A DNA stretch of 38,781 nt. Source: an uncultured Bacteroidia bacterium (lineage in GTDB: Bacteria > Bacteroidota > Bacteroidia > Bacteroidales > Prolixibacteraceae). Location: assembly GCA_903918045.1 (NCBI GenBank), contig CAIXCY010000082.1, positions 127,730-166,510 on the forward strand. Reading direction: 5' to 3'. The notes beneath the pieces are model-generated. The model searched no databases. It saw only the letters and a list, made by a program, of their open reading frames with translations, and was not told where the DNA came from. Positions 1 to 15,135 of this stretch are shown piece by piece. Every line of letters begins with the position of its first letter. The stretch's first letter is position 1. The position numbers were made by a program, and so were the translations under genes.

Positions 1-1406
1 AACTTTACAATAAAGAGTATGTGGCGAAATATGCCGAAGGGTTCGATGAGCTGAAAGTACATGTCCGGAATTATACCCCGGAATGGGCTTATGGAATAAC
101 GACTCTTAAACCGGAACTCATCCGTCAGACAGCCAGGGAGATGGCCAACGCTGCGCCTTCAGCAATCATTCATCCGGGGAGGCATACCACCTGGTACGGA
201 GATGATGTGCAGCGGTCGCGCGCAATCGCTATCTTAAATGCCTTATTGGGTACCTGGGGAAACAGGGGTGGCATATTTTTTAAGGAGGGGATTAAAATTC
301 CCGATTTTCCGCACCCACCTTATCCGAAACCCGCATGGTCGTGGCAGGATACACTCAACGGAAGGTATCCCTTTGCCAAGGAAGCAGTTACAAATACGGT
401 TATTGAGGCCTCAATTCCTGGAGAAGGAAAAAACCACGTGATTAAAGGGTGGATTGTTTCAGGGACAAACCTTATCGTTTCGATCCCGTTGAAGGAACAA
501 TTAATGAAGGCAATACACTCGCTCGATTTACTGGTTGTTGTGGATACGATGCCGATGGAGATTACGGGTTATGCCGATGTTGTTTTACCGGAATGTACCT
601 ATCTCGAGCGGCACGATGATTTACGTGCCACAGCCCATCGCGAACCAACACTCGCCCTTAGGATGCCTGCAGTAGAACCGCTCTATGAAACCAAACCGGC
701 CTGGTGGATTTCGAAGCAGATCGGTCAGCGGCTTGGTCTGGGACCGTATTATAATTATAAAGATTTTAAGGAGGTACTCGACTGGCAGCTCAAACAGGTG
801 GGATCATCACTTAATGAAATGGAGCAGATGGGTTTAAAAAAGTTTGAACGGAAGACTCCGGTATATATCACCCCCGGATCGGACTACAAATTTAAAACTG
901 CAAGCGGGAAAATACAGCTCTATTCACACGAACTCGAAGCAGCAGGCTTTGATCCGATGCCGAAGTTAACCCTTCACCCACAACCTGAAGAGGGATTTTA
1001 CCGGTTAATCTATGGTCGGGCTCCCATGCATACCTTCAGCCGCACAGCCAACAACCGGAATCTTGGAGCTTTGATGCCGGAAAACGCGGTGTGGATCAAC
1101 CCTCAGGTTGCCGAACTCTGGGGACTGAAAAAGGATCAATATGTATTTCTCAAGAACCAGGCAGGAGTGGTTTCAAATTTTTCGGTTAAAGTGCGAATCA
1201 CTGAACGGATCCGGTGGGATTCGGTTTATATCGTTCATGGATTCGGACACCATCATAAACCATTGACATACGCCTTCGGACGCGGGGTTAACGATACCGA
1301 ATTAATTTCAGATGTAAAAATCGACCCGGTAATGGGAGGCACCGGGATGCGTGGAAATTTTGTCACATTTATTAAAGACGCAGCAAAAAAGGAGGCTAAA
1401 TCATGA
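1..1406 (+). CDS. Molybdopterin oxidoreductase catalytic subunit, PsrA/PhsA-like (3' part)
   Basis: The open frame enters from the left edge (first full codon at base 3), so only about the last 467 residues are present; the signal peptide, [4Fe-4S] site and Mo ligand lie outside. What remains matches the C-terminal half of the DMSO-reductase superfamily: a segment with GRHTTWYGDD and NALLGTWGNRGG, then ADVVLPECTYLERHDD, then a dinucleotide-binding domain with YGRAPMHTFSRTANN. In polysulfide and thiosulfate reductases this subunit reduces the sulfur substrate at a periplasmic Mo-bis-MGD centre. The stop overlaps the next start (ATGA), and a ferredoxin subunit and an NrfD anchor follow, which is the standard three-subunit layout. 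The YeeE and rhodanese-like neighbours favour polysulfide or thiosulfate as substrate, but tetrathionate reductase or a sulfite dehydrogenase (SoeA-like) cannot be excluded. Confidence 0.85.
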   Translation, partial: LYNKEYVAKYAEGFDELKVHVRNYTPEWAYGITTLKPELIRQTAREMANAAPSAIIHPGRHTTWYGDDVQRSRAIAILNALLGTWGNRGGIFFKEGIKIPDFPHPPYPKPAWSWQDTLNGRYPFAKEAVTNTVIEASIPGEGKNHVIKGWIVSGTNLIVSIPLKEQLMKAIHSLDLLVVVDTMPMEITGYADVVLPECTYLERHDDLRATAHREPTLALRMPAVEPLYETKPAWWISKQIGQRLGLGPYYNYKDFKEVLDWQLKQVGSSLNEMEQMGLKKFERKTPVYITPGSDYKFKTASGKIQLYSHELEAAGFDPMPKLTLHPQPEEGFYRLIYGRAPMHTFSRTANNRNLGALMPENAVWINPQVAELWGLKKDQYVFLKNQAGVVSNFSVKVRITERIRWDSVYIVHGFGHHHKPLTYAFGRGVNDTELISDVKIDPVMGGTGMRGNFVTFIKDAAKKEAKS

Positions 1407-1936
1407 GGTACGGAATGGCTATTGATACCCGAAAATGTGTGGGCTGCAGCGACTGTGTCGTGGCTTGTCAGACAGAAAATAACGTCCCGATTGGATTTTG
1501 CCGCGACTGGGTGGTTGAAGTTGTTGATGGCACCTACCCCAATGTAAGTATTGAACTCAGGTCCGAAAGGTGCAACCATTGTGCAAACTCACCTTGCGTA
1601 AGATGCTGTCCAACAGGTGCAAGTCATTTCGAAGATGGTGGAATTGTCCTCGTAGAGCATAACAAGTGCATCGGCTGTGGCGCCTGTATTGAGGCATGCC
1701 CCTACGATGCCCGTTATTCCCATCCGGATGGTTACGTGGACAAATGCACCTTCTGCATTCACCGGGTACGCGAGGGTAATAATCCGGCCTGCGTAAGTGT
1801 GTGCCCCACAAGTTGCATGTATTTCGGGGATCTGGACGATCAGAATTCAAAAATTGTGAATGTACTGAAAAACCGGAAATTCAAGTCACTGGCTCCCGAA
1901 GCCGGCACAAAACCTCAGATATTTTACCTGGTTTAA
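1403..1936 (+). CDS. Four-cluster ferredoxin subunit of Psr/Phs-type reductase (PsrB-like)
   Basis: This 177-residue protein carries electrons between the membrane anchor and the Mo subunit. Sixteen cysteines form four [4Fe-4S] sets: C12/C15/C18/C22, C57/C60/C65/C69, C89/C92/C95/C99 and C115/C118/C130/C134, the arrangement of the PsrB/PhsB/DmsB family. No signal peptide is present, as expected for a subunit exported with its Tat-bearing catalytic partner. The ATG overlaps the stop of the upstream gene by four bases, and an AAGGAGG at 1389-1395 is an unusually good ribosome site for this genome. The length is normal for PsrB. Confidence 0.92.
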   Translation: MRYGMAIDTRKCVGCSDCVVACQTENNVPIGFCRDWVVEVVDGTYPNVSIELRSERCNHCANSPCVRCCPTGASHFEDGGIVLVEHNKCIGCGACIEACPYDARYSHPDGYVDKCTFCIHRVREGNNPACVSVCPTSCMYFGDLDDQNSKIVNVLKNRKFKSLAPEAGTKPQIFYLV

Positions 1937-1956: not shown

Positions 1957-2898
1957 ATGAAAGAAGAATTATTTGCTAGCGGGCGAAACATCCCCAATAT
2001 TGACCCCTATCTGAACATCTGGCACTGGCAGATTCCCATCTACCTCTTCCTGGGCGGAGTAGCCGCCGGCATACTCTTTTTTGCCGGAGTATTTACCATT
2101 CTTGGCAAAGAGAATAAGATGTCAGCTACAGTCAAAAAGGCGCCGTTGCTGGTCCCGTTTCTGCTGATTTTTGGATTATTTATGCTTTTCCTCGATCTGA
2201 AACATAAGCTTTTTTTCTGGCAGCTCTATACTACAATTCGTCTCGAGTCACCAATGGGATGGGGTGCCTGGGTTTTGATGATCATTACACCAATTTCGAT
2301 TTTATGGTCGGCAAGTTATGTGAGGGAGGTCTTCCCAAACTGGGATTGGAAATATGATTTTCTGAAAACCTTTGAAGCCTGGCTAATAAAATACAGGTTA
2401 TGGATTGCCTGGCCTATGGCTGTTTACGCAGTGATTCTGGGAATTTATACGGGGATATTACTTTCCGCATTTAACGCACGCCCGCTTTGGAATACCTCTA
2501 TTCTGGGTCCACTCTTTTTGGTTTCCGGAATGTCAACAGCGGCAGCGGTAATCATAATGCTGAGCAAAGATCATAAAGAGCGAAAAATCATGGGGCGAAT
2601 CGACCTGCTTCTGATTGTTATCGAACTCTTTTTTATTGTCCATCTGCTTATGGGGTTTCTGGCCGGATCAGAAGCGCAGATCAATGCGGCCAACCTGTTC
2701 CTTGGAGGAAAATTCACCGCTCCGTTCTTTACGTTTGTGGTACTTCTGGGTCTGATTTTCCCTGCTCTACTGGAAATTTTCGAACTCAAAGGATATAAGG
2801 TTCCAATTTATATTCCGGCAATCCTTGTATTGCTTGGCGGTCTGATTTTCAGATTTTTGATGGTTGAAGCAGGACAACTAACCCGCTATTTGTATTAA
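1957..2898 (+). CDS. NrfD/PsrC-type quinol-interacting membrane anchor
   Basis: This 313-residue polytopic protein has about eight to nine hydrophobic segments and is the likely menaquinol-facing subunit of the complex. The N-terminus (MKEELFASGRNIPNIDPYLN) runs into IWHWQIPIYLFLGGVAAGI, a typical NrfD/PsrC first helix with a Gly-rich stretch. The open frame extends upstream to 1801, but that part overlaps the ferredoxin gene and reads as nonsense, so the ATG at 1957, 20 bases after the ferredoxin stop, was chosen. It is co-oriented with the two preceding subunits and completes a PsrABC-like complex. Its hydrophobic character and context are clear; the substrate of the complex is inferred. 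Confidence 0.9.
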   Translation: MKEELFASGRNIPNIDPYLNIWHWQIPIYLFLGGVAAGILFFAGVFTILGKENKMSATVKKAPLLVPFLLIFGLFMLFLDLKHKLFFWQLYTTIRLESPMGWGAWVLMIITPISILWSASYVREVFPNWDWKYDFLKTFEAWLIKYRLWIAWPMAVYAVILGIYTGILLSAFNARPLWNTSILGPLFLVSGMSTAAAVIIMLSKDHKERKIMGRIDLLLIVIELFFIVHLLMGFLAGSEAQINAANLFLGGKFTAPFFTFVVLLGLIFPALLEIFELKGYKVPIYIPAILVLLGGLIFRFLMVEAGQLTRYLY

Positions 2899-2909
2899 AA
2901 TATTATGTT

Positions 2910-3437
2910 ATGAAAAAAATAAAAAATGACGGAACGTATTACCTAAATCCCTATCTGGGTGGTGTAATACTTGGAACCTTTCTTTTTCTTGCATTTTACA
3001 TTTCCGGCCGGGGACTTGGAGCCAGTGGAGCCGTTAAAAACAGTGTTGCTGCCGGCGTAAACGTGATCGCACCAGAGCATGTCGCCAAATCCGCCTACTA
3101 CTCCCAATTTGCCGGAGGAGACAAGCAGCCGATGAGTAACTGGCTCGTCTTCGAAGTTCTGGGAGTTTTGGCAGGTGCATTTCTGTCCGGAATAATTTTC
3201 AACCGTTTAAAAATGAAGGTAGAACATTCACCTAAAATCACCTCCCGACGAAGACTCATTTTTGCCCTGGCCGGTGGATTGATTTTCGGATTTGGATCGC
3301 AACTGGGACGGGGTTGTACCAGTGGTGCCGCACTTAGCGGAATGGCGGTCCTCTCATTTGGCGGCTACATCACCATGATTGCAATATTCGGTACAGCCTT
3401 TTTAGCAGCATGGATCTTTCGTAAAAACTGGATTTAA
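2910..3437 (+). CDS. YeeE/YedE family sulfur transporter, half 1
   Basis: This 175-residue membrane protein has about four helices and the family motif GRGCTSGAALSG with Cys136. In the YeeE/YedE family (for example thiosulfate transporter TsuA) conserved cysteines in such Gly-rich loops line the substrate path. The protein is about half the size of a full-length YeeE, and the next gene supplies a second, dissimilar half, so the pair probably forms one transporter. It starts 11 bases after the PsrC-like gene. The substrate is inferred to be thiosulfate or another small sulfane-sulfur species. A periplasmic loop of about 50 residues (around 45-85) is longer than I would expect for the family. 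Confidence 0.88.
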   Translation: MKKIKNDGTYYLNPYLGGVILGTFLFLAFYISGRGLGASGAVKNSVAAGVNVIAPEHVAKSAYYSQFAGGDKQPMSNWLVFEVLGVLAGAFLSGIIFNRLKMKVEHSPKITSRRRLIFALAGGLIFGFGSQLGRGCTSGAALSGMAVLSFGGYITMIAIFGTAFLAAWIFRKNWI

Positions 3438-3457
3438 CCATTTCAAGCTATAAAACT

Positions 3458-4051
3458 ATGATTGGATCTATCATATCATCAGGAGTTATTTCCCCGGCAT
3501 GGGACAACTTCTTTGCCGTAATCCTTGGAATGGGTTTTGGCTTTGCCCTGGAGGCATCAGGTTTTTCTTCTTCCCGAAAGATTATTGGCACCTTCTTTGG
3601 TTATGACTTCGTGGTTGTAAAGGTTTTCTTTACCGCTGCAATAGTTGCGTCATTGGGATTGCTTTATTTCAGTTACCTGGGACTTTTAGATTTTTCGACC
3701 TTATACATTCAACCCACCTTTCTTACTTCCGCAATAGTAGGCGGTATAATTATGGGAATTGGATTTGCAATGGGCGGCTTTTGCCCTGGTACCAGCCTAT
3801 GTGCTACTGCAGTTGGCCGTCTTGATGGCCTAGTTTTTTTTGGCGGGATGTTTATCGGTGTCTTTCTGTTTTCTGAAGCTTTCCCCCTTTTCGAAAGTAT
3901 TTATAACAGTGGTTCGGAAGGGGCAAAAATGGTGAATACAGTCTTTGGCATTTCACCAGAACTGTTTACGTTCTTCCTCGTTTTGGCTGCAATTGGGATG
4001 TTCGCAGGTGCAGGTTGGGTTCAGAAGAGAGTAAAAAAGGTTGAATATTAA
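3458..4051 (+). CDS. YeeE/YedE family sulfur transporter, half 2
   Basis: This 197-residue membrane protein has about five helices. Two family signatures are visible: GFALEASGFSSSRKIIGTFF near the N-terminus and GGFCPGTSLCATAVGRLDG with Cys109 and Cys115. The motif differs from that of the preceding gene, so this is the complementary half and not a tandem duplicate. It starts 20 bases after half 1 and 12 bases before the first rhodanese-like gene, which supports a single operon. Import of a sulfur compound through the half1-half2 pair is inferred from family knowledge. Confidence 0.88.
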   Translation: MIGSIISSGVISPAWDNFFAVILGMGFGFALEASGFSSSRKIIGTFFGYDFVVVKVFFTAAIVASLGLLYFSYLGLLDFSTLYIQPTFLTSAIVGGIIMGIGFAMGGFCPGTSLCATAVGRLDGLVFFGGMFIGVFLFSEAFPLFESIYNSGSEGAKMVNTVFGISPELFTFFLVLAAIGMFAGAGWVQKRVKKVEY

Positions 4052-4063
4052 ACTACCCAAATT

Positions 4064-4687
4064 ATGGAACGAAAATATACACTACTTGCTATTTTCTTAA
4101 TTGTATTGGCTTTGGGATTGGTTATTCTTCCGAAGAAAAATGAACTTAAGGAAACCGATCCAAAGGCTCTGTTGTCTTCAGTGGTTGAAAAATCACGCTA
4201 TTTAACTGTCGACCAGATTACTCACCGGATCATCGAGAACGATCCCACCTTAATGCTGATCGACCTGCGATCGGCAGATCAGTTCAAAATCTTTTCACTG
4301 CCGGGATCACTTAATATCCTCACCGACTCATTGCTTACCAGAGCAAATATGGAACTTTTCAATCAGCCAGGAAAGGATAAAATATTGTATGGAAATGCAG
4401 ATCTCATGGCCGAAAAAGCCTGGCTTTTGTGTTCCCGATATGCGTTAAACCGAATCTACGTTATGAAAGGGGGGATGAACGAATGGTTCAACACGTTCGT
4501 TAAAGAAAAACTCCTTACCGGTACACCGTCTACTTCAGACCTGGATCTGATTAGTTTTAGAAAGGCGGCACGACAGTTTTTAATAGGTTCAGGTGAAACC
4601 GGGAATGCCTCTGCCACCACACCCGCTATAGAAAAGGTCCAGGTAATCCGCAAAGCACCAAAAGCTGCGGCCGGCGGTGGTTGTTAA
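4064..4687 (+). CDS. Membrane-anchored rhodanese-like protein without active-site Cys, C-terminal GGGC
   Basis: The protein has 207 residues. An N-terminal helix (about 7-24, RK before and KK after) predicts an inner-membrane anchor with the rest in the periplasm. Residues about 50-150 resemble a rhodanese domain: LIDLRSADQFKIFSLPGSLN, then ILYGNADL, then YVMKGGMNEW. At the position of the catalytic Cys (normally V-V-Y-C) there is Gly110 in LYGN, so ordinary sulfurtransferase chemistry is not expected. After a linker of about 50 residues rich in Ala, Thr and Lys the chain ends KAAAGGGC, with Cys207 the last residue. A free cysteine on a Gly arm recalls the SoxY GGCGG arm that carries sulfur intermediates. 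A persulfide or polysulfide carrier role serving the adjacent reductase or transporter is inference. The rhodanese assignment itself is good. Confidence 0.8.
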   Translation: MERKYTLLAIFLIVLALGLVILPKKNELKETDPKALLSSVVEKSRYLTVDQITHRIIENDPTLMLIDLRSADQFKIFSLPGSLNILTDSLLTRANMELFNQPGKDKILYGNADLMAEKAWLLCSRYALNRIYVMKGGMNEWFNTFVKEKLLTGTPSTSDLDLISFRKAARQFLIGSGETGNASATTPAIEKVQVIRKAPKAAAGGGC

Positions 4688-4798
4688 GTTATATAATCAG
4701 CGTTAAATATCAAAGATTCAGGACAATTTCCCAGGATAATAGTATTTCATTATGATAATTAGCAGGTGTTTTATAATTTAAACTCAAACACAAATCAA

Positions 4799-5389
4799 AT
4801 GAACCATTTCGTCAAAACCAATTCACTTTGGCTCAGCTTTCTTGGATTAGCAGTGATAATAGTAGTCCTTACTTTCCTGTTCAGACCATTATCGGCTCAT
4901 TATCAAACCAATGCTAAAGAGTCAATAACCCTGATGAATGACCCGACAACTGAAATTGAGCTAAAAGATCTTTCAGGAAAACAACTCATCGATATTCGTC
5001 AGGAGGAATTATATTCACAGGGGCACCCCTTAAACGCTATAAATATACCAATCCGCCAACTTCTGGACAAAGAATCCCTCCAACTATTTGACAACCTGCA
5101 AAAAAACAACAAGGAGGCGGTACTCTATGGAAATACGGAATTACAGGCTACAGCCCCGGTGTTCTTGCTCCGGCAACTGGGTTATAAAAACCTGAAACTT
5201 TTAAAAGGGGGAATCAATCCAACTAATGAATTTATACCACCTGCACCTGCCATGACCGAAGTATCAGTTGTAGACACTTCCTCCATTCATCAAAAAACTG
5301 AACAAACTCAGATAGCGCCAACAATTCAGAAGAAAGGCGAGGCGGTAATTCCGGTTCGTAAGGGAGCTTCCGCAGGCGGGGGGTGCTAA
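4799..5389 (+). CDS. Second membrane-anchored rhodanese-like protein without active-site Cys, C-terminal GGGC
   Basis: This 196-residue protein is a paralogue of the preceding gene product. It has an N-terminal anchor (LWLSFLGLAVIIVVLTFLF), a rhodanese-like segment with LIDIRQEELYSQGHPLNAIN and LKLLKGGI, and the same Cys-to-Gly change (Gly111 in LYGNTEL). A long polar linker leads to the C-terminus KGASAGGGC, with Cys196 last. A GTG at 4766 would give an 11-residue extension; the ATG at 4799 was preferred because it places the membrane helix near the start. Apart from the fold core and the tail the two paralogues are well diverged, so the retained LYGN and GGGC probably matter. Function is unknown; a sulfur-carrier role is inferred. 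Confidence 0.78.
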   Translation: MNHFVKTNSLWLSFLGLAVIIVVLTFLFRPLSAHYQTNAKESITLMNDPTTEIELKDLSGKQLIDIRQEELYSQGHPLNAINIPIRQLLDKESLQLFDNLQKNNKEAVLYGNTELQATAPVFLLRQLGYKNLKLLKGGINPTNEFIPPAPAMTEVSVVDTSSIHQKTEQTQIAPTIQKKGEAVIPVRKGASAGGGC

Positions 5390-5484: not shown

Positions 5485-6777
5485 ATGAAGCATGTTATTG
5501 GAATTACATTTTTGATTCTTGTGATTATTGGAAGTCTCCTGCCGGAAAAAGTCCATGCCACGGATGGCTATTTTGGTGTTGGTTATGGGGCGCAGAACAA
5601 AGGTCTGGCCGGAGCCGGAACTGCATGGTACAAGAACGGACTTATAAACGGAAACCCTGCAGGTAATGTTTTTCTAGGCAAAAAATACCTTGTAGGTTTT
5701 GAGATTTTTAACCCCAACAGGGAATATACCATAACTGGTGCACCCTCCCAAATGCCCCAAACAATGGGATTGACCCCGGGAACAGTTGAAAGTGGCTCAA
5801 AAGCTTTTTTGGAACCAACCCTTGGAGCTAACTGGATGCTCAATGAAAAGAGCAGTTTCTCTGCAACACTTTTTGGAAACGGGGGGATGAATACCGATTA
5901 TAAAACCAAAACTTTTTATGACCAGGGATCAGAGACGACTGGAATTAATCTTGCCCAGATGTTTCTTGGACTAACCTATTCAAGGAAAATTGCAGAGAAG
6001 CATAGTTTGGGTGTAACTGCATTGGTAGTCTATCAGTATTTCAGTGCCACCGGACTAACAAATTTTGCCCAAATGTCTCAGTCTCCTACAAAATTAACGG
6101 GGAATGGGACCGATAACGCAACAGGTTTCGGATTCAAACTTGGTTATATGGGACAATTGGCAGATGGACTAACACTGGGTATAAATTTTCAGCCAAAGAT
6201 TGCAATGGCTAAATTCAGTAAATATGCCGGTCTTTTTGCCGGGCAGGGAAACTTTGACATTCCGTCTAACTTATCTGCAGGATTAGCCTGGGAAGCAAAT
6301 AAAAAATGGGCTATTCTGGCCGATTACAAGCGGATCAACTATAGTGGTGTTGCCTCTGTTTCAAATATATTTGACCCAATGTCAACCTCTCCGCTTGGTT
6401 CCAATAAGGGTGCAGGTTTTGGCTGGAAAGATATAAATGTGTATAAATTGGGGGTTGAATTCACCGGGAATAATGGCTGGACATTAAGAGGGGGATACTC
6501 ACATTCTGACCAACCTGTTCAAAAGACACAGACGTTGTTCAACATCCTAGCTCCTGCAGTCACAACAGATCACCTGACCGTCGGATTTTCAAAACAACTT
6601 GGGACATCAAAGAGTGCCGTTCATTTTGCACTCGTTTATGCCTTACCAGGAAGCGTAACCGGTTATAATCCTCTGGATTTTGATGCAACCCAGGCTATGG
6701 CCGGAAATATGGTTCCAAATCAAACCATTAATCTCAAAATGAATCAACTTGAGTTTGAAGTTGCTTTTACTTTTTAA
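5485..6777 (+). CDS. FadL/OmpP1-type outer-membrane channel
   Basis: This 430-residue protein has a signal peptide (about 1-25, ending VHA before TDGYFGVGYG) and a predicted beta-barrel: alternating polar/nonpolar strands, many Gly and aromatic residues, and a terminal Phe (EVAFTF). The N-terminal segment with NKGLAGAGTAWYKNG and NGNPAGNV matches the hatch region of the FadL/OmpP1/TodX family, which moves hydrophobic compounds across the outer membrane. It lies 95 bases after the second rhodanese-like gene and ends at a strong terminator, so it may be the last gene of the sulfur operon. Uptake of hydrophobic sulfur species such as polysulfide or S8 is a speculative reading; fatty acids or hydrocarbons are equally possible. 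Confidence 0.85.
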   Translation: MKHVIGITFLILVIIGSLLPEKVHATDGYFGVGYGAQNKGLAGAGTAWYKNGLINGNPAGNVFLGKKYLVGFEIFNPNREYTITGAPSQMPQTMGLTPGTVESGSKAFLEPTLGANWMLNEKSSFSATLFGNGGMNTDYKTKTFYDQGSETTGINLAQMFLGLTYSRKIAEKHSLGVTALVVYQYFSATGLTNFAQMSQSPTKLTGNGTDNATGFGFKLGYMGQLADGLTLGINFQPKIAMAKFSKYAGLFAGQGNFDIPSNLSAGLAWEANKKWAILADYKRINYSGVASVSNIFDPMSTSPLGSNKGAGFGWKDINVYKLGVEFTGNNGWTLRGGYSHSDQPVQKTQTLFNILAPAVTTDHLTVGFSKQLGTSKSAVHFALVYALPGSVTGYNPLDFDATQAMAGNMVPNQTINLKMNQLEFEVAFTF

Positions 6778-6871: not shown

Positions 6872-8344
6872 CTATTTCATCTTCTCAATCCTCTTTACCA
6901 CCAATTTTGAACTAATCATCGTTATTGGTAATCCCGTACCCGGAACGGTGGATGCACCAACATAAAAGACATTCTTGTACACTTCGTCAAAATTGGTTGG
7001 ACGAAAGGCGCCGATCTGCAGCATCTTATGTGATAATCCCAAACCGCTTCCGCGATGAAGGTTAAACTGGTTCTGCCAGTCAATTGGTGAATAGCTGGTA
7101 CGCGAGATAATCTCCGGAACAATATCCTTCCCAATACGCGCCGAAAAGTCGGCAATGATGCTGTCAACAATCTCATCCTTATCCTCCCAGCTTTTCTTAA
7201 ACCTCAGATCGGGAACCGGACAGACGAAGAACAGCGACTCACACCCTTCGGGGGCGCAGTCGGGATTATTCCGCGAAAGCACATTTACGTAATAATAGGG
7301 CTTCTGAATAGTCCCTGTCGATTGAAAGATCTTATTGGCATAATCCTTAAAGTTATCTCCAAGGTAGTAGTTGTGGTGCTCTACCTGCGGAAGCTTGCAC
7401 TTTAAACCGATATAGATCGTGAGCGGCCCCATCGTCCACTCCATCTTATCGAGTTTTGCCTCCGAGAACCGGGGGCGTTTAAATATTTTACCACGGAACG
7501 ACGCCGCATCGCTGTTCACAACAATAATATCACTTTGCCATTTCCCCCCGTTTTGGTCAACAAGAGCATCTAATTTCCTGCCATTTGCGAGGTAGTCAAC
7601 AATTTCGGTATTGTAGGTGATTTTAACATTCTCTTTCTTCAGCTCCTCAACGATTCCTTCCACGATCTTATACATCCCCCCTTCAACATTATAATACCCG
7701 TCATGTTGAAATTCGGTATAGGAGAGTAACGTGTAAACCGCCGGAGTATCGAAGGGTGTCCTTCCAAGGAAGAAAGCGACCAGTGAAATAATCTCACGGG
7801 CATCATCCGAAGAGAAATAATGGCACACCTGTTGCCAGAAATTCCGGAAAAGTACCGGTAAATGGATTGGATTAACCTTCATCAGGGTGAGCAGGTAGGA
7901 GAAAACGGAATTGTAGTTTTCCTTAATTACAATGTCGACCGTATCATCAAAAAGCGCCTTACCGTTTTTGAGGTATTTGCGCATTTTAATTTCGAAGTCA
8001 GGTTCAACGTCTTTAAACTGCTCAGCCAGCTTGTGAATATCTTTATAAAGCTTATAAGTCTTAGGACTTCTGCTGAAATTTACGGTATAAAGGGGGTCTA
8101 ACTCAACATATTTAAACGGGAGTTCAATGTTGCAATCGTTGGCAAATTCCTTGAATTCATAAGACATACTGAAGAAACTTGGGCCCATGTCGAAAGTAAA
8201 CCCATCTTTTTTCAACTGGTTAAGCCTCCCTCCTGCCTGACTGTTTTTTTCGATAATTTCAACCTGATAACCTCTTTTTGCCAACCTCAGGGCAGTAGCC
8301 AGGCCCCCGATTCCGGCGCCTACTATTAGAACACTTTTTGCCAT
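6872..8344 (-). CDS. crtI: Phytoene desaturase (CrtI family)
   Basis: This 490-residue FAD-dependent desaturase converts phytoene towards lycopene. The N-terminal dinucleotide-binding motif VLIVGAGIGGLATALRLA is followed by an acidic residue in EIIEKNSQAGGRL, and the C-terminus has the family's second flavin motif FYVGASTVPGTGLPI. Length and both motifs are typical of CrtI. It is the last gene of the carotenoid operon and starts two bases after the TPR gene. It is the only CrtI-like gene in the window, so the separate CrtD-type 3,4-desaturase found in some clusters is absent or elsewhere. A CrtD or carotenoid-isomerase role cannot be formally excluded, but with crtB in the same operon phytoene desaturase is the simplest reading. 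Confidence 0.9.
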   Translation of the reverse strand: MAKSVLIVGAGIGGLATALRLAKRGYQVEIIEKNSQAGGRLNQLKKDGFTFDMGPSFFSMSYEFKEFANDCNIELPFKYVELDPLYTVNFSRSPKTYKLYKDIHKLAEQFKDVEPDFEIKMRKYLKNGKALFDDTVDIVIKENYNSVFSYLLTLMKVNPIHLPVLFRNFWQQVCHYFSSDDAREIISLVAFFLGRTPFDTPAVYTLLSYTEFQHDGYYNVEGGMYKIVEGIVEELKKENVKITYNTEIVDYLANGRKLDALVDQNGGKWQSDIIVVNSDAASFRGKIFKRPRFSEAKLDKMEWTMGPLTIYIGLKCKLPQVEHHNYYLGDNFKDYANKIFQSTGTIQKPYYYVNVLSRNNPDCAPEGCESLFFVCPVPDLRFKKSWEDKDEIVDSIIADFSARIGKDIVPEIISRTSYSPIDWQNQFNLHRGSGLGLSHKMLQIGAFRPTNFDEVYKNVFYVGASTVPGTGLPITMISSKLVVKRIEKMK

Positions 8345-8346
8345 TT

Positions 8347-9081
8347 TTACTGTTTTAAGTTCTTTAATAACTTAGGATACAATTCATCCCGAACCCATTT
8401 AAAATCAGGTTCGATTTTTAGTATCTCCTCATAAACCAATTTTGCATGAGCATTATCATTTATCGCTTTATAATTCTCTGCGATAGAGCTTAACAAACTC
8501 AGGTAGTTCCAATCATCCCTCATCGTAATGGTATCCTTCTCCATTAATACCTTTGCTTTTAAATAATTCGTTAATGCTTCCTGTTTGGACCCACCAAACA
8601 GAGGGGGTGCATGAAATTGCACGTTACCTGCCTGGATATATCCGAAAAAATCATTGGGATCCAGGGAAATTGCCAGTTTGGCGCTTGCAACACTTTTAGG
8701 CCCAATAAAAGGGGCCGAGAAAATATTCAGACCGATATGAAATCCATAAAAAGCCGATTTATACCCATTAACCTTCGCCAGGTTAAATTTTTGCAATTCC
8801 AGAAATTTCAAACTCGCTTCTGCCAGTTTAAGATAATCTGAGGCTTCATCCTTGCGGTTTGTTCCCAGGCACCATCCTATGTAACCATACTGGTAATTGA
8901 TCAGTTCAAGCACCTGATCATTACTCTTTTCCTTTTTATTTTGAAGTTGATCAACAATAACCTTCCAGGCAGGCATCGAATTATTGATATAAGCATTGTA
9001 AATATCCCTTTTATTACTTCCGTGAAGCGAGATAACAAATAAGAATAAAAAAATAATTACGAAATATCCCTTCCTTTCCAT
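8347..9081 (-). CDS. Exported TPR-like protein of the carotenoid operon
   Basis: This 244-residue protein has an N-terminal hydrophobic stretch (GYFVIIFLFLFVISLHG) that looks like a signal peptide. The rest is helical with TPR-like repeats, for example AKLAISLDPNDFFGYIQAGN and AKLVYEEILKIEPDFKWVRD. It has no catalytic motif that I recognise. It overlaps the glycosyltransferase gene by 25 bases and is followed two bases later by crtI, so it is translationally embedded in the pathway. A scaffold or transport role for the finished pigment in the periplasm is possible, but nothing in the sequence proves it. Confidence 0.8.
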   Translation of the reverse strand: MERKGYFVIIFLFLFVISLHGSNKRDIYNAYINNSMPAWKVIVDQLQNKKEKSNDQVLELINYQYGYIGWCLGTNRKDEASDYLKLAEASLKFLELQKFNLAKVNGYKSAFYGFHIGLNIFSAPFIGPKSVASAKLAISLDPNDFFGYIQAGNVQFHAPPLFGGSKQEALTNYLKAKVLMEKDTITMRDDWNYLSLLSSIAENYKAINDNAHAKLVYEEILKIEPDFKWVRDELYPKLLKNLKQ

Positions 9082-10148
9082 TGATACTGATAAAAGAATT
9101 TATTTGTGAAGGCCTTGTAAATAAAAAGGGCCATTGTGAGTTGCTGCGGAATCAGATAAAGCATATTTGTTGCAATATTCTGATTACTGGCTATTGAAAC
9201 AAATATTCTGGTCACTAAGAATATAACAAGGTAGGCCCCTGAAATGTTGAGCGGAAACGCGATGAAAACAGGAATAAATCCAAAAGTTGTAATAAGCCAG
9301 AAAAACGTTGCTAAAAGGAATGAATTACCAAAGAAGGCTGTAATATTCTTTGCAAAACCATTAACCGCTTCATCAAATCCACGATACATCCGGCATTGTA
9401 TCGACTTATTTCCCGTAAGGCAAGCCACCGGAATTCCTTTTTGTTTAAAATAGTGTGCGATCGTAATATCCTCCACTTTATTTGCCCTGGCAAATTCGTG
9501 TGGGTATATTTTTTTATAAACCTGATTGTTAAACAACATAAACTGACCATTGGCAGCTGTCAATGATGGAAATCCCGATCCTAAAACCAGCGGAAGAGGG
9601 AGAAGTGACAATAAGATATAATTCATTATCGGAACCGTCATTTTCTCACCCCTGGTAATCATTAACTGATCGGGGAAAATCGAAAGAAGGCCAATATTAA
9701 ACTTTTGAGAATAGGCAGCAGCTAATTGTATGATATCATTGCCAATCCGCACATCGGCATCCAGGAACAGCAGGTAATCCCCCTTAGCCTGATGGGATAA
9801 GGAGTGACAACCAAAATTCTTCCCAAGCCACCCTTCGGGCAATTTATCAGAGCTGATTAACCTTATCCGGGGATCGGATTCACCAATCTGCTCAACTATC
9901 AGAGGCGTCTGATCAGTTGATTGATCGTCAAAGACAATAATTTCAATATTAGAGTACGATTGGCGAATCAGATCCTTTAAAATAACACCAATGTTATTCT
10001 CCTCATTTCGGGCCGGAATAAGTACTGAAATCAGGGGGTCATCATGAAGCTCATATTTCCCCAAATCGGGCTTAAACGCAAGGTTAAATGCGGCAACAAT
10101 GAACTGTAGCAAAGTAAAGGATACGACAACTATAGCCAGAATATACAT
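9057..10148 (-). CDS. Family 2 glycosyltransferase, carotenoid glycosylation (CruC/CruG-like)
   Basis: This 363-residue membrane-associated GT-A enzyme has an N-terminal helix (MYILAIVVVSFTLLQFIVAA), the nucleotide-sugar site SVLIPARNEENNIG with DDQS at 74-77, the metal motif DAD at 130-132, an ED pair in NKVEDITIAHYF, and CRMYRGFDEAVNGFAKN followed by several C-terminal membrane helices. This layout fits the carotenoid glycosyltransferases CruC/CruG and CrtQ-like proteins. The open frame begins upstream at 10184, but the ATG at 10148 forms a TGATG overlap with the acyltransferase stop and puts the membrane helix first, so it was preferred. With CruF upstream it should glycosylate the tertiary hydroxyl of the hydrated psi end. 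The sugar donor cannot be read from sequence. Confidence 0.85.
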   Translation of the reverse strand: MYILAIVVVSFTLLQFIVAAFNLAFKPDLGKYELHDDPLISVLIPARNEENNIGVILKDLIRQSYSNIEIIVFDDQSTDQTPLIVEQIGESDPRIRLISSDKLPEGWLGKNFGCHSLSHQAKGDYLLFLDADVRIGNDIIQLAAAYSQKFNIGLLSIFPDQLMITRGEKMTVPIMNYILLSLLPLPLVLGSGFPSLTAANGQFMLFNNQVYKKIYPHEFARANKVEDITIAHYFKQKGIPVACLTGNKSIQCRMYRGFDEAVNGFAKNITAFFGNSFLLATFFWLITTFGFIPVFIAFPLNISGAYLVIFLVTRIFVSIASNQNIATNMLYLIPQQLTMALFIYKAFTNKFFYQYQWKGRDIS

Positions 10149-10771
10149 CAATGTGTTGATTTTAGGGCATTCGCACTGATACACTTTTTATAAAAATGAT
10201 TGTAGGCATCCTGAATCGAACCGGTATCGAATTTGTCTCCCACAAATTCTGATATATATATAAAGAGACCTGGTTTTCGGTCTGAAAAGTAATCGACCAG
10301 ATTAGCCATAAAGATAATTTGTAAGGCCCCTGACCGTTTAATAATGTGTTTAATTCCTCCTTCAAAATTAAGCGGGAAGGTATAAGCGGATTCAATTTTA
10401 CCCTGAGGAAACACCAACACCAAATTTGCGCGGTCATTGAGTAATTCCACGGTATATTCAATAGATTCAATTGCACTTCGTGACCCTTTCCGAACGGAGT
10501 ATCCCCCGATAAGATTAGGATGAGTGAATTTGGTCAACTGCTCCTCCATCATCATAAAATGAAATTTTCTCTTTAATAGGCTAACATTTAGATATAAAGC
10601 CATGATCCCATCCCACCAGCTGAAATGGTTAGCTAATAAGAGTACAGGGAGATTTCTATCTTTAAATTCGCCATTAATTTCCACATGACCGAAATGTCGG
10701 TGGATACTCCAGCCCGCATAAAATTTAAAGAATGGATAGTAGAAAAAATGGTGTCTCGCCTTTATAATCAT
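10148..10771 (-). CDS. PlsC-like acyltransferase, probable carotenoid glycoside acyltransferase (CruD-like)
   Basis: This 207-residue member of the lysophosphatidate acyltransferase superfamily has the catalytic HX4D box at H49-D54 (NHFSWWD) and a second block FPQG at 121-124. The frame is open up to 10954, but the extra part overlaps the cruF gene and reads as nonsense; the ATG at 10771 lies two bases after the cruF stop and gives the usual domain length. Between a carotenoid hydratase and a glycosyltransferase, its likely role is esterifying a fatty acid to the carotenoid sugar, as CruD does for chlorobactene glucoside in green sulfur bacteria. A general phospholipid acyltransferase is the alternative. 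Confidence 0.82.
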   Translation of the reverse strand: MIIKARHHFFYYPFFKFYAGWSIHRHFGHVEINGEFKDRNLPVLLLANHFSWWDGIMALYLNVSLLKRKFHFMMMEEQLTKFTHPNLIGGYSVRKGSRSAIESIEYTVELLNDRANLVLVFPQGKIESAYTFPLNFEGGIKHIIKRSGALQIIFMANLVDYFSDRKPGLFIYISEFVGDKFDTGSIQDAYNHFYKKCISANALKSTH

Positions 10772-10773
10772 AT

Positions 10774-11439
10774 CTATTTTTTTACAAAAATCAGAATTGC
10801 AATAAAAAAGAGAAACTGGCAAATCAGGATGGCAGAGGCTACGGGATTTATGGTTCTGACTTTCATCCATTTCAATAATCCATGAAATCCTGCTGCCAAA
10901 ACAAACCATGCCAGATAGTTTTGAAGCGGAATGTGATTCTCTTGCCAACTCCACATACCCAGTAATGGTGCGACATGCTCCAAAACAAGGTCATAAAGGA
11001 CCAACAACCCCGAAGCCACAAGAATCTGAATTACTGAAGGCCACCTTGTCCAGGCCAGCATCGCTGCACTGCAGTAAACGACCATTACCCAGTTAATACC
11101 GATCATTAAGGGGGTGTCAAATAACTTAAATCCAAGTCCTTCTCCGTAAGTATAATGTCCAAAGATCAGATGTGTCTTAACTCCCAACACTTCAACTAAA
11201 TAACCCAGTAAATAGATTAAGGGGAAAGCAAACAGATTATCGAGACGTTTCCACGATTTATGGAAAATCATAATCAGAATAAAACTCAGTAAAAGGGCAA
11301 ATGGAATTAGTGCTCTGAAGAATGGTTGTGAACCGGGAATTGCGATACCCACGACTCCGACAACATAAAAAAGAATAACAACAAATATTGTATTTGATCT
11401 TTGCCGAAGTAAATTATTTAAGAGTAGTTCCATTTTCAT
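10774..11439 (-). CDS. cruF: Carotenoid 1,2-hydratase, CruF family
   Basis: This 221-residue integral membrane protein has about seven helices and belongs to the CruF/COG2324 family, recognised from the conserved block FGHYTYGEGLGFKLFDTPLM followed by GINWVMVVY, and from DLVLEHVA and MWSWQE further on. CruF adds water to the psi end group of gamma-carotene or related compounds to give a 1'-hydroxy carotenoid. The start codon overlaps the stop of the lycopene cyclase (ATGA) and the acyltransferase follows two bases after its stop, so these enzymes are tightly coupled. The substrate is inferred from the cluster. Confidence 0.87.
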   Translation of the reverse strand: MKMELLLNNLLRQRSNTIFVVILFYVVGVVGIAIPGSQPFFRALIPFALLLSFILIMIFHKSWKRLDNLFAFPLIYLLGYLVEVLGVKTHLIFGHYTYGEGLGFKLFDTPLMIGINWVMVVYCSAAMLAWTRWPSVIQILVASGLLVLYDLVLEHVAPLLGMWSWQENHIPLQNYLAWFVLAAGFHGLLKWMKVRTINPVASAILICQFLFFIAILIFVKK

Positions 11440-12146
11440 ATTGGTCTGGCTCTAACAGATCTTTTTCCGAAATACAAAACTAATCGATTAATTAGTAATA
11501 GATTAAAAAGAATCAGACTAAAAGCGTAACTGATATCCTCAACCGGGACTGTAAGTATACGTATTCCAAGGTTCTCCCCATTATTATACCAAACCACCGG
11601 CTCGGCTATAAAGCTCCCGGTTAGGACTGAATTTACAAGAAAGAACGGTATCAGAATAACTAAGAAAGTAAGATAAAACCTGTTTAGAATTGAGCTCCCA
11701 CTTAGCGAGGCTAATAAAATTGAAATTATTGCAACTGCCAGATAGATAGAGGTGTACAATTTATTCAGGTTCATTAGGACTACAATTCCCAGCACTAGAA
11801 CCAGTAGAATTGTAACTATTTTTGTCTGTCTGCCTGAAAGTTGACGACCGGTAAAGAGATAGATCAAAGTATCGTGCAGGAAAATACTTGCATAAGGAAT
11901 AACAATAAAGAACATCCACTCTTCAACGGGTAAATTAAAGAGAAGAATACCAGAATGATAATGGGGGTTAAATCCCCACACTCCGTATTTCGTAAACAAA
12001 ATATCACCTGCCACATAAAATGAACCTACCAGTATAAGCGATAATGCTACCGGTTTTAATTTAAGGTAAAACTTGAGTTTGCGGTCGTAGGAGAAGAGGA
12101 AAGGAATTAGAATTGCCAAAATTTCAAGCAGAAGATAAACAGACAT
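11436..12146 (-). CDS. crtYcd: Lycopene cyclase, fused CrtYc-CrtYd type
   Basis: This 236-residue membrane protein is built of two similar halves, each ending in a PxE(E/D) motif: LPVEEW around residue 73 (after GVWGFNPHYHSG) and VPVEDI around residue 201 (after VVWYNNGENLG). This duplicated pattern marks the heterodimer-derived CrtYc/CrtYd cyclases in their fused bacterial form. The enzyme forms beta-ionone rings on lycopene. With CruF acting on an open end in the same operon, a single cyclisation giving gamma-carotene is likely, though a beta,beta product is possible. It lies 10 bases downstream of crtB. Confidence 0.9.
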   Translation of the reverse strand: MSVYLLLEILAILIPFLFSYDRKLKFYLKLKPVALSLILVGSFYVAGDILFTKYGVWGFNPHYHSGILLFNLPVEEWMFFIVIPYASIFLHDTLIYLFTGRQLSGRQTKIVTILLVLVLGIVVLMNLNKLYTSIYLAVAIISILLASLSGSSILNRFYLTFLVILIPFFLVNSVLTGSFIAEPVVWYNNGENLGIRILTVPVEDISYAFSLILFNLLLINRLVLYFGKRSVRARPI

Positions 12147-12156
12147 AAAGTTAAGA

Positions 12157-13002
12157 TTAAATCATTCCAAGCTTATGAACTATCAATGCTTTTGCGAGTA
12201 AGGCCATTTTCATGGTTCCGGATACCCGTATTCGTGCTGTTAATATTTTGGTTGCCGGAGTATACTTAACCTTCTTTACTAAGCGCAAATAATAATAAAA
12301 TGCGATAAGCACAGCAAGTTGAGCATTTTGAGGCAAATCAGAGATCCCTTTTCTGGCAGACAGGAAGTCTTTTTCGATATCTGAAATTATTTCAGCTTTA
12401 ATCTGGTCGTTAAAAACACAGTTCCCCATCTCCGGGAAGTATTGCCGGTCAAGATATTCGGTATCGCTCCTTAAATCGCGCAAAAAATTAACTTTTTGAA
12501 ATGCTGAACCCAGTCTCATAGCGGGTTCCTTTAAAGACTCATACATTTCGCTGTTCCCATCTGTAAAAACCGCCAGACACATCAAGCCCACCACGTCGGC
12601 AGAGCCGTAGATGTACTGATCAATTTCGGACTTACTATTGTATGTGGATTTATGAATGTCAGATCTCATACTGAGAAGGAATGCCTTTATGAGTTCATCG
12701 GGGATTTGGTATCGTTTCACGGTTAGTTGAAACGAATGCAATACAAGATTGAGGCTAATACCGCAATTCAACGCCTCATAATAATCTGCTTCAAATTTAT
12801 CGAGCAGCATCTCTTTGTCATGCCCCAAAAATGTGTCAACAATTTCGTCAGCACAGCGGACAAAACCATAAATACTGTAAATAGCATTCTGTATTTTCAG
12901 GTCCAAAAAACTTACAGCAATAGAAAACGACGTGCTGTATGTTCTGGTAACCAAATTACTTACCTTAAATGAAACCTGGTCGTAAAGGTTTACTGAATCC
13001 AT
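12157..13002 (-). CDS. crtB: Phytoene synthase
   Basis: This 281-residue squalene/phytoene synthase family enzyme condenses two geranylgeranyl diphosphates into phytoene. The first Asp-rich motif is DEIVD at 52-56 (VRCADEIVDTF) and the second is in NFLRDLRSDTEYLDRQYFP (about 172-190), both intact. The length is normal. It is the first gene of a seven-gene operon on the - strand; the upstream 186-base gap holds the kup terminator and a 14-bp palindrome. No geranylgeranyl diphosphate synthase gene is in the window. Confidence 0.93.
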   Translation of the reverse strand: MDSVNLYDQVSFKVSNLVTRTYSTSFSIAVSFLDLKIQNAIYSIYGFVRCADEIVDTFLGHDKEMLLDKFEADYYEALNCGISLNLVLHSFQLTVKRYQIPDELIKAFLLSMRSDIHKSTYNSKSEIDQYIYGSADVVGLMCLAVFTDGNSEMYESLKEPAMRLGSAFQKVNFLRDLRSDTEYLDRQYFPEMGNCVFNDQIKAEIISDIEKDFLSARKGISDLPQNAQLAVLIAFYYYLRLVKKVKYTPATKILTARIRVSGTMKMALLAKALIVHKLGMI

Positions 13003-13188: not shown

Positions 13189-15135
13189 TCACGGGTATTC
13201 GACCCGAATAATTCTTTTTTTAAGTTGTTGTTCAATAACGATAGGCACTTTCTCCTCAATTACATTTGAAGAGTCCAGTCCGAGCGCTTTTACGTCGTTA
13301 ATACTTATTTTCCGAATAAAATTATGCAGCCCCATAATAAACCCTTGCTGAAGTGGTAATTTATAATCACTAATGAGAATTCTGTCCAGATTCACATAAA
13401 GGCAATCTGCAGGTATATTGTGTGCCTTTAACGAATCATATTGACTAACCATACTGATTTCTCCACTTTTTACAAGATCTTCAATCACCTCCCTGAAGTA
13501 TAAGTTAATCTTCCGTTCGATTTTAAAGCCCAGTCTAAAGTCAACCTTGATCAACACTCCGGGGATCATGTGATGAACAACATATTCGAAGGTATTTGGA
13601 GTCTCAAGATTATCGATGTGCAGAAACCAATAGGTACTGGCCCGCTTAGGGTGTTTGTTGAAAATTGAGTACATAATTTTAGCCTCAATCTGATCACGGC
13701 GGTTTGCTTTGGTTATGTAAATCAGGTTAGTCGCGATCTTTGGAATAGAAGTATCTGCACTTAACTCCCTGAAAATGCCTGGATCTTTATTTACATTAAC
13801 AAAACTGATGTATTTGTTCTTGATCTTCCGCCCAAAATACCAGCCGTACATAACAATAAAGAAAACGAAGGCCAAAGCAATAGTTAACCAACCTCCATTT
13901 GCGAATTTGTGAAGATTCGCATAAAGGAAAGTACCTTCAATCGATAAAAAGACTGTAAGCAACAGGGCAATATAAATCCGAGGAACTTTTCGATTCCTTA
14001 AATGGTACGACAACAGTGAGGTCGTCATAATCATTGTAATTGTAATTGAAAGTCCATATGCGGCTTCCATTTTAGAGGACTCCCCAAAGTAGATCACCAC
14101 AAAAGTACATGCGATCCAAAGAAACCAGTTTACAAATGGAATATAGACCTGTCCTTTAATGTCGGTCGGATAATTTAATCTGATCTTCGGCCAGATATTC
14201 AATGAAACCGCCTCACTAATAAGCGTATAAGATCCACTTATTAAAGCCTGACTTGCGATTATTGAAGCCGCAGTAGCTATAACGGCACCAGGGAGGAGAA
14301 ACCATTGAGGCATGATGGCAAAAAATGGATTTGCACTGTTCATATGATCCATATGATTTAACAGATATGCTCCTTGTCCGAAATAATTGATAAGTAACGA
14401 TATTTTCACAAACATCCACGAAATACGAATATTCTGTATACCGCAGTGCCCCAGGTCAGAATAGAGTGCTTCGGCTCCGGTTGTGGCTAAAAATACAGCT
14501 CCAAGAAGAACCATTGCATTAGGAAATTCTGTAATAAACCGGACTGCGTATACAGGATTCATTGCAGCCAAAACGCCAGGATCTTTTACGAGATAATTAA
14601 GGCCAAGCACAGCAAGCATCGAGAACCAGATAAACATCACAGGACCAAAAGCCTTTCCCATAAAGCCAGTGCCGAATTGCTGAAAAAAGAAAAGAACAGA
14701 AAGGATAGAAATGACAATCGGGACAACTGGAATGTGCGGATAAAATAGTCCGAGACCCTCGACTGCAGAAGTAACTGTAATTGAGGGAGTAATTACACCA
14801 TCTGCCAATAAGGCACTGCCGCCAATCATTGTAAGGATAGCAATCCAATTATTTTTCCTTCGGATCAATGCAAAGAGTGCAAAGATCCCCCCTTCACCAT
14901 GGTTGTCTGCCCGAAGGGTTATGATTACATACTTAACGGTCGTTTGAAGTGTCAGGGTCCAGAAAATACAGGATAAAGCTCCAAAAATCAGCTCCTTATT
15001 ATATATTGTTGATGCATTTATGATTGCATTCATCGTGTAAAGCGGACTTGTTCCAAGATCACCAAACACAATTCCCAAGGTAATGACTAAACCTGCAAAA
15101 GATACTTTTGCAATGCCGCTATGTTGTTTATCCAT
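13189..15135 (-). CDS. kup: KUP-type potassium uptake protein
   Basis: This 648-residue inner-membrane K+ transporter has the family signature GDLGTSPLYT at 25-34 in the first helix, about twelve hydrophobic segments over the first 430 residues, and a hydrophilic C-terminal domain of about 200 residues, as in E. coli Kup. It is probably monocistronic: a terminator follows it and a TACATTTG element precedes it. It is unrelated to its neighbours in function. The assignment is secure by overall length and motif. Confidence 0.93.
   Translation of the reverse strand: MDKQHSGIAKVSFAGLVITLGIVFGDLGTSPLYTMNAIINASTIYNKELIFGALSCIFWTLTLQTTVKYVIITLRADNHGEGGIFALFALIRRKNNWIAILTMIGGSALLADGVITPSITVTSAVEGLGLFYPHIPVVPIVISILSVLFFFQQFGTGFMGKAFGPVMFIWFSMLAVLGLNYLVKDPGVLAAMNPVYAVRFITEFPNAMVLLGAVFLATTGAEALYSDLGHCGIQNIRISWMFVKISLLINYFGQGAYLLNHMDHMNSANPFFAIMPQWFLLPGAVIATAASIIASQALISGSYTLISEAVSLNIWPKIRLNYPTDIKGQVYIPFVNWFLWIACTFVVIYFGESSKMEAAYGLSITITMIMTTSLLSYHLRNRKVPRIYIALLLTVFLSIEGTFLYANLHKFANGGWLTIALAFVFFIVMYGWYFGRKIKNKYISFVNVNKDPGIFRELSADTSIPKIATNLIYITKANRRDQIEAKIMYSIFNKHPKRASTYWFLHIDNLETPNTFEYVVHHMIPGVLIKVDFRLGFKIERKINLYFREVIEDLVKSGEISMVSQYDSLKAHNIPADCLYVNLDRILISDYKLPLQQGFIMGLHNFIRKISINDVKALGLDSSNVIEEKVPIVIEQQLKKRIIRVEYP

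Follow-up and report, generated by a model that had tools for sequence, protein, structure and literature searches.

What work is left for a rhodanese-like protein that has lost the catalytic cysteine of its domain and carries a cysteine at the very end of a C-terminal tail? Two neighboring genes of this kind, here RhdA and RhdB, were singled out by a first-pass annotation of the 38,781-nucleotide stretch of DNA analyzed here (the window), which proposed that they encode a new class of periplasmic sulfane-sulfur carrier resembling the swinging arm of SoxY. The two open reading frames, their rhodanese domains, the glycine at the active site, and the GGGC ends were all seen again in the window and in close relatives. 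The earlier observation was right and understated, in that the GGC-tail family is wider than claimed and the tail is common to up to three proteins per operon.

An operon with two degenerate rhodaneses

RhdA and RhdB belong to an operon-like run on the + strand, in the first 6.8 kb of the window, that leads from the end of a psr module through YeeE1 and YeeE2 to RhdA, RhdB, and a FadL-family channel (Table 1). The product of the first, truncated gene scored 275 bits against the PhsA model, below the cut-off of 694, and the oxidoreductase subunits also scored below cut-off against arsenate reductase models. Judging by Pfam profile positions, the Sulf_transp domain of the transporter is split across the two YeeE genes, with the order of its halves swapped. 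A FadL-like gene also adjoins RhdA in loci L009, L189, L190, L194, and L196 and YeeE2-RhdA fusions in L242 and L256. The two rhodanese-like proteins share only 27% identity over 162 aligned positions, yet comparison of the family profiles shows a clear relationship (hhalign E value of 7.8e-45), and both have the same layout of an N-terminal hydrophobic anchor, a rhodanese domain, and a C-terminal stretch with GGGC. We place the start of RhdB most likely at the ATG at 4799, and not at the GTG at 4766 of the listed open reading frame, because its orthologues begin at this ATG.

Table 1. Features of the RhdA/RhdB operon in the window, with the second GGC locus of the same genome
Feature	Position	Strand	Basis
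PsrA/PhsA-like molybdopterin oxidoreductase, C-terminal part (start precedes window)	21..1406	+	PF00384, PF01568
PsrB-like 4Fe-4S subunit	1403..1936	+	PF13247
PsrC/NrfD-like membrane subunit	1957..2898	+	PF03916, 144 bits
YeeE1, half transporter, C-terminal half of Sulf_transp, GCTSG cysteine	2910..3437	+	PF04143 profile positions 177-309
YeeE2, half transporter, N-terminal half of Sulf_transp, CPGTSLCA cysteines	3458..4051	+	PF04143 profile positions 13-150
RhdA, membrane-anchored rhodanese-like candidate carrier, 207 aa	4064..4687	+	PF00581, orthologues
RhdA rhodanese domain, residues 57-143	4232..4492	+	Pfam
RhdA Gly110 in place of catalytic Cys	codon 4391-4393	+	
RhdA tail AAAGGGC	4664..4684	+	sequence and close relatives
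RhdA terminal Cys207	codon 4682-4684	+	
RhdB, second anchored rhodanese-like candidate carrier, 196 aa	4799..5389	+	PF00581, orthologues
RhdB rhodanese domain	4961..5218	+	Pfam
RhdB Gly111 in place of catalytic Cys	codon 5129-5131	+	
RhdB tail ASAGGGC	5366..5386	+	sequence and close relatives
RhdB terminal Cys196, sole Cys of RhdB	codon 5384-5386	+	
FadL/OMPP1-family outer-membrane channel, possible sulfur entry	5485..6777	+	PF03349, 72 bits
Second GGC locus: octaheme tetrathionate-reductase-family cytochrome, cytochrome b, YeeE1, YeeE2-rhodanese fusion, then DUF134 protein	L072:3974-7989 (contig C143, window's genome)		

We compared these proteins with relatives from two samples. In the order of the window's genome, 117 of 295 genomes had a match at E ≤1e-10; 120 regions from this search and 11 close-set loci, with the window itself left uncounted, make up 131 loci that encode 108 RhdA proteins, 23 YeeE2-RhdA fusions, 86 RhdB proteins, and 47 double rhodaneses. 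Across the phylum, 81 of 395 genomes had a match at the same threshold, and the phylum set comprises all 63 matches at E ≤7.6e-15 in genomes other than that of the window (60 genomes); weaker matches were left out, save two that are the RhdB genes of the L170 and L174 loci. Neighboring genes were typed by similarity to proteins of the window, L072, and L076 within eight open reading frames on the same strand. A search of viral contigs gave 66 pattern matches and no relatives, plasmids held no RhdA match, and no PHROGs entry matched.

Both window proteins scored above the PF00581 (rhodanese superfamily) cut-off of 22.2 bits (43 bits for RhdA and 53 bits for RhdB). When RhdA was compared with solved structures by phmmer, the best match, a weak one (E value of 0.0039), was 1qxn, named sulfide dehydrogenase in the PDB and presumably the Sud protein of Wolinella succinogenes, and Gly110 fell opposite its cysteine. 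A profile of 21 diverse RhdA sequences likewise set the active-site column, serine in the family, opposite the cysteine of the solved rhodanese 6mxv. Among the 108 RhdA proteins this column holds Ser in 91, Gly in 8, Ala in 7, Thr in 1, and Cys in 1, so that the cysteine expected in the loop of a catalytic rhodanese, where both window proteins have glycine, is missing from 107 (the sole exception being L144). It is also absent from all 23 fusions, from 77 of the 86 RhdB proteins, and from 61 of the 63 loci elsewhere in the phylum, and the replacement is mostly Ser or Ala across the family. The first-pass annotation had emphasized a Gly-for-Cys exchange within an LYGN motif; the loss proved to be family wide, whereas the glycine is a local variant, since the family column is mostly Ser. 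Judged by these alignments, loss of the active-site cysteine is a property of the whole family, and with Ser, Ala, or Gly in place of the catalytic residue the domain presumably no longer forms a persulfide of its own. The proteins that keep the cysteine (9/86 RhdB, 1/108 RhdA, and 2/63 phylum loci) count against a carrier function of the kind discussed below.

The membrane anchor that had been proposed was borne out by a strongly hydrophobic segment in 107/108 RhdA proteins. More positive charge lies before than after this anchor in 76/108 RhdA and 50/86 RhdB proteins, a moderate bias, and the C-terminal end is net positive in 72/106 unfused YeeE2 proteins. These charge data moderately favor a cytoplasmic YeeE2 end and an RhdA anchor that would carry the rhodanese domain to the periplasm. 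A twin-arginine-like motif near the N-terminal start, found in all 80 PsrA homologues longer than 650 aa, indicates that PsrA probably works outside too. A structure model of RhdA built from 12 sequences, of low to middling confidence (mean pLDDT of 64.8, pTM of 0.52, with the five models ranging from 33.9 to 64.8), arranges its strands and helices in a rhodanese-like order; pLDDT in this model is below 50 for residues 176 to 207.

A cysteine at the end of the chain

The GGGC end is invariant among close relatives, being present in 11/11 RhdA proteins (12 rows with the window's own) and 10/10 RhdB proteins (11 rows with the window's own); RhdB is missing beside RhdA in L013, one of the 11 close loci. 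Among the 108 RhdA proteins with a called end, 104 end in G[GS]C plus zero to two residues and two in EGC (L059 and L094), which puts the tail cysteine in 106; of the other two, L113 is cut at a contig edge and L143 is frame-shifted, with a KKAVQGGCS tail present in another frame. The same pattern closes 76 of the 86 RhdB proteins, and one more (L059) has EGC, for a total of 77. The double rhodaneses match in 34 of 47 cases, with VCD in two and no tail in eleven. Natural YeeE2-RhdA fusions mostly retain the tail: 19 of 23 match and two end in GGLCx, giving 21 with a tail cysteine. Farther afield, cysteine is last or next to last in 62 of the 63 phylum loci (GGC in 31, EGC in 18, GGCx in 7, MGC in 4, DGC in 1, and FQC in 1), and in the remaining one, L262, a frameshift has put KKKKREGC into another frame. 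A cysteine at or next to the C terminus, as on a swinging arm, is thus present in 106/108 RhdA proteins and 62/63 phylum loci. The claim that it is the very last residue holds for the window and many relatives and not for the family as a whole, in which GGCS, GGCE, GGCG, GGCD, and GGCN variants also occur. Because Gly-Gly is replaceable and the cysteine is not, the tail cysteine is the likely working residue.

None of the other 1,351 complete open reading frames of the 131 loci ends in GGC or GGC plus one residue. In the window's genome, a DNA search for codons of GGC ahead of a TAA or TGA stop gave 35 matches, and among the 30 inspected, RhdA and RhdB alone close an open reading frame of at least 70 aa with GGC. 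On these sequence counts, chance is excluded as the origin of the GGGC ends. Two outcomes that would count against the original proposal, in-context homologues that have a normal active-site cysteine but are without the tail, and failure of the tail to be conserved in other genomes, were looked for, and neither was found for RhdA.

The tail cysteine is the sole cysteine in 65 of 106 RhdA proteins. Several observations weigh against a carrier function: the tail cysteine is the sole one in just 30/77 RhdB proteins and 10/21 fusions, nine RhdB proteins have no matching tail (four have DEECPDLN-like tails with cysteine and five have none), 13/47 double rhodaneses are without GGC, and two fusions (L152, and L149, where the match spans a stop) have no tail.

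Two minor observations concern variant ends. In L107, L111, L115, and L116, RhdB ends in DEECPDLN or similar, and RhdA and the double rhodanese retain GGCG or GGCS. Open reading frames near GGC operons at L010:11314-11994 and L072:1631-2275 end in GGCCS and GGCCC, and we take the product of the former to resemble an arsenite methyltransferase.

Matched tails and the genes around them

RhdA, RhdB, and the double rhodanese have nearly identical tails when they come from one operon, and the tails differ between operons. Examples are KSVQGGCS in L065 (with KAVQGGCS in RhdA), KKEEEGGC three times in L066, KQVGGGCE in L102, QAAAGGCE in L091, and ESAGGGCN in L108. After greedy clustering at 50% RhdA identity, which retained 37 of 76 RhdA-RhdB pairs, 3.57 of the 6 residues before xGC agreed on average, compared to 1.26 when pairs were shuffled (maximum of 1.86 in 2,000 shuffles), and the residue after the cysteine agreed in 35/37 pairs, compared to 23.9 (maximum of 30 in 10,000). 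The other two pairings behaved alike, at 3.30 against 1.21 shuffled (20 pairs) and 3.41 against 1.15 (22 pairs). This excess identity is strong in the last ∼13 residues, weak to about position −22, and absent further back; together, the shuffles and the position profile rule out chance or composition as the source of the matching. Where RhdA and RhdB agree in a tail residue, the codon is also the same in 249 of 508 cases, compared to 206 predicted by pooled codon usage; for the other pairings the figures are 129 of 235 (98 expected) and 91 of 195 (80 expected). Recent gene conversion as the sole cause was not supported, since about half of the codons differ; some DNA copying or a shared codon bias may have contributed, codon identity being somewhat above expectation in all three pairings.

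In genomes with two fetched loci the tails differ in seven of eight (the window's genome, G167, G072, G014, G308, G356, and G547), and the eighth, G249, has identical tails from two contigs that resemble copies of one locus. The paired loci mostly lie in different branches of the family, so the differing tails show only that tails are not uniform within a genome. Matching inside operons combined with this lack of genome-wide uniformity suggests that whatever reads the tail is a product of the same operon. An association of tail extension with YeeE and Psr alignment columns placed the top column in YeeE2; the tail state changes only five times on the tree, no column shares more than three of the five tail-change branches, and no partner was singled out.

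The composition of the operons bears on which gene product the reader might be. A YeeE gene lies near 107 of the 108 RhdA genes, with the exception (L084) at a contig end; the fusions were kept out of this count, as YeeE2 is by definition part of them. Psr genes lie near 93/108, an octaheme cytochrome gene like that of L072, usually with cytochrome b, near 22/23 fusions, and an SQR gene near five RhdA genes (type III in L076), joined by DUF1641 and DsrC genes in L076, L084, and L124. The window's genome itself has two kinds of operon, the Psr operon and, in L072, a YeeE2-RhdA fusion with a KIKGGC end beside an octaheme cytochrome (TIGR04315, 557 bits against a cut-off of 375). The redox module thus varies between operons and YeeE is near constant. 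Psr is an unlikely constant partner of the tail, because tails persist in operons without it; the link to psrABC and yeeE that had been drawn from the window was borne out, with YeeE a nearly constant neighbor and Psr a frequent but not constant one. Among the YeeE2 proteins, 111/129 have the motif GG[FY]CPGTS and just 62/129 have the next cysteine, the latter counting against a carrier reading.

The double rhodanese, a gene absent between RhdB and FadL in the window operon, is often the last of its operon. By loose patterns, two CxxG active-site motifs are present in 27/47 of these proteins, one in 17/47, and none in 3/47, and a lipobox-like start is found in 38/47. With a GGC tail in 34/47, the double rhodanese is a plausible loader of the tails.

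We note two further arrangements. In L076, L084, and L124, GGC-rhodanese genes are followed by SQR, DUF1641, and a DsrC-family gene, which suggests a sulfide-oxidizing version of the relay proposed below; an SQR gene also occurs in L103. A divergent branch (L252, L253, L260, and L263) has an RhdA ending in RMGC that adjoins YeeE1 and YeeE2; a further rhodanese, upstream, has no tail, and typing of the stretch returned neither a Psr nor an octaheme gene.

A candidate sulfur carrier and its alternatives

The domain, the lost cysteine, the conservation and matching of the tails, the gene context, and the fusions are all read directly from the sequences, and taken together they lead us to favor, with measured confidence, the hypothesis that RhdA and RhdB are tethered periplasmic carriers of sulfane sulfur, whose tail cysteine would be charged and then read by one operon-encoded partner, probably YeeE. 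The persulfide chemistry, the direction of flow, the partner, and the side of the membrane are what we infer here. Polysulfide or thiosulfate, entering through the FadL homologue or a comparable channel of the outer membrane, would be the sulfur source, and in other operons sulfur could be handed on by the double rhodanese that retains active-site motifs. The sulfur would be loaded on the tail cysteine, riding at the tip of a probably disordered arm of ∼30 residues, and then be presented to a single operon-encoded port. This port would most likely be the split YeeE1/YeeE2 transporter, whose own cysteines could relay the sulfur; YeeE is nearly always a neighbor, in some loci forms one protein with RhdA, and possesses cysteines, which makes it the most likely docking partner on sequence grounds. 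The redox enzyme of the operon would consume or produce the sulfur, namely PsrABC here and an octaheme cytochrome or SQR elsewhere, and matching tails would allow several carriers to use one common port.

A more tentative extension, which we consider possible and would not yet bet on, is a keyed-plug relay. Two or three unlike carriers (degenerate single rhodaneses, a catalytic double rhodanese, and a transporter-fused rhodanese) would share an operon-specific tail that fits one cognate split YeeE port, and persulfide would be swapped among these carriers without mixing with another relay of that cell. The Tus relay is a cytoplasmic sulfur relay, and the keyed-plug relay, if true, would be its phylum-wide periplasmic counterpart, with interchangeable redox modules.

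The strongest competitor, although we judge it unlikely, is that the tail serves to dock or tether the protein and carries no sulfur cargo, its cysteine forming a structural disulfide with YeeE, Psr, or another tail to assemble the operon's complex. The operon-specific match of the last 8 to 13 residues, often basic and variable between operons, does resemble a recognition tag, and the cysteine is retained where Gly-Gly is lost (EGC, MGC, DGC, and FQC). A pure tag, however, has no obvious need for the cysteine found at or next to the end of nearly all distant loci (a disulfide tether would need one), and the neighboring genes are for sulfur transport and sulfur redox chemistry. The same neighbors speak against a second, improbable idea, that the tails are sensors or protective thiols against excess sulfane sulfur: most RhdA genes have a respiratory Psr gene nearby and nearly all fusions an octaheme cytochrome gene. 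That idea draws on the YeeE-like SoxT1B, described in passages of PMC11582611 as signal transducing and working with a repressor, and on the DUF134 protein encoded after the L072 fusion. Other proteins bind metals through C-terminal cysteines, and the oxidoreductase subunits did give sub-cut-off scores with arsenate reductase models, but binding of a metal or metalloid by the tail, in an operon that handles it, is very doubtful given one cysteine per tail, no His or second Cys conserved beside it, and a sulfur-related context (Sulf_transp, SQR, DsrC, and the tetrathionate-reductase-family cytochrome). We reject as hardly credible a trimmed and thiocarboxylated Gly-Gly end like those of the carrier families ThiS, MoaD, and CysO, which the frequent Gly-Gly before the cysteine might recall, since the cysteine is conserved and Gly-Gly is not (many ends are EGC, MGC, DGC, or FQC, with variable residues past the cysteine) and the domain is a rhodanese, not a ubiquitin-like fold, predicted to lie outside the cytoplasm and away from ATP-dependent activation.

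The preferred carrier reading has partial precedents. The sulfur-carrying cysteine of SoxY sits in a GGCGG motif, unlike that of RhdA and RhdB, which lies at or next to the end; a Pfam scan of both proteins for domains at E ≤0.001 returned Rhodanese alone and no SoxY domain, so that the likeness first noted to SoxY stands by function only. SoxY of SoxYZ is treated in portions of PMC11237559, whose text gave no match to GGCGG, as a periplasmic carrier with its cysteine on a swinging arm, and lucinid symbionts are reported there to have a divergent soxY next to a gene for octaheme tetrathionate reductase, much as the GGC fusions here adjoin an octaheme cytochrome gene. Sud appears in excerpts of PMC2754497 as a periplasmic polysulfide-sulfur transferase serving polysulfide reductase, and a title in its reference list states that Sud requires its single cysteine. 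Like Sud, RhdA is rhodanese-like and predicted to be periplasmic, and its gene usually lies near psr genes; unlike Sud, RhdA and RhdB have no sulfur-binding cysteine at the rhodanese active site by the 1qxn alignment and have a terminal cysteine and a membrane anchor.

On the transporter side, TsuA and SoxT are placed in the YeeE family, with three conserved cysteines, in the available part of PMC11582611, which calls passage of sulfur from the SoxY cysteine along the cysteines of YeeE-like SoxT conceivable and the route of SoxYZ-bound sulfur to the cytoplasm unknown. Unlike SoxT and TsuA, the transporter here is split in two genes with its halves swapped, and a rhodanese-like protein takes the place of SoxYZ. 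In Desulfurivibrio, according to the sections consulted of PMC12142623, a Psr operon includes a secreted triple rhodanese, periplasmic rhodaneses lie beside YeeE and a porin, and sulfur is proposed to pass from periplasmic sulfurtransferases to YeeE; these sections make no mention of a terminal-cysteine tail, a lost active site, or tail matching. The YTD cluster, as outlined in part of PMC12998232, combines a yedE-related gene with sulfur carriers and is defined also by tusA and dsrE, and it resembles our loci in pairing a YeeE-type gene with candidate carriers. An open-access full-text search, a corpus outside which most subscription papers fall, yielded no description of a terminal-cysteine rhodanese, a lost active site in such a setting, or matching tails.

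Little is known of how sulfane sulfur is held outside the cytoplasm and delivered to respiratory enzymes and YeeE-type importers. The GGC-tail family opens this problem to experiment: one terminal cysteine is a definite site to test, YeeE is a candidate for the partner, and a carrier fitted with a tail from a different operon would serve as a natural control. What is new is the operon-specific shared tail, which makes the question of the partner testable and points to an undescribed sulfur hand-over between proteins outside the inner membrane. Given matches in 117 of 295 genomes of the order and strong ones in 60 other genomes of the 395 in the phylum sample, the family may be relevant to sulfur metabolism in many Bacteroidota. 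The rhodanese fold appears to have been reused as a scaffold for a terminal cysteine, so that a purely domain-based annotation would label RhdA and RhdB as active sulfurtransferases.

Elsewhere in the window, positions 6872-13002 on the − strand hold what we take to be a carotenoid-synthesis-like run, with a phytoene desaturase-like gene at 6872-8344, a phytoene synthase-like gene at 12157-13002, and genes presumably for two cyclase-like membrane proteins, a glycosyltransferase, and an acyltransferase. It is followed at 13189-15135 by a presumed KUP-like potassium transporter. In L013 (RhdA at 3359-3982, without RhdB), a KUP-like gene comes directly after RhdA on the opposite strand.
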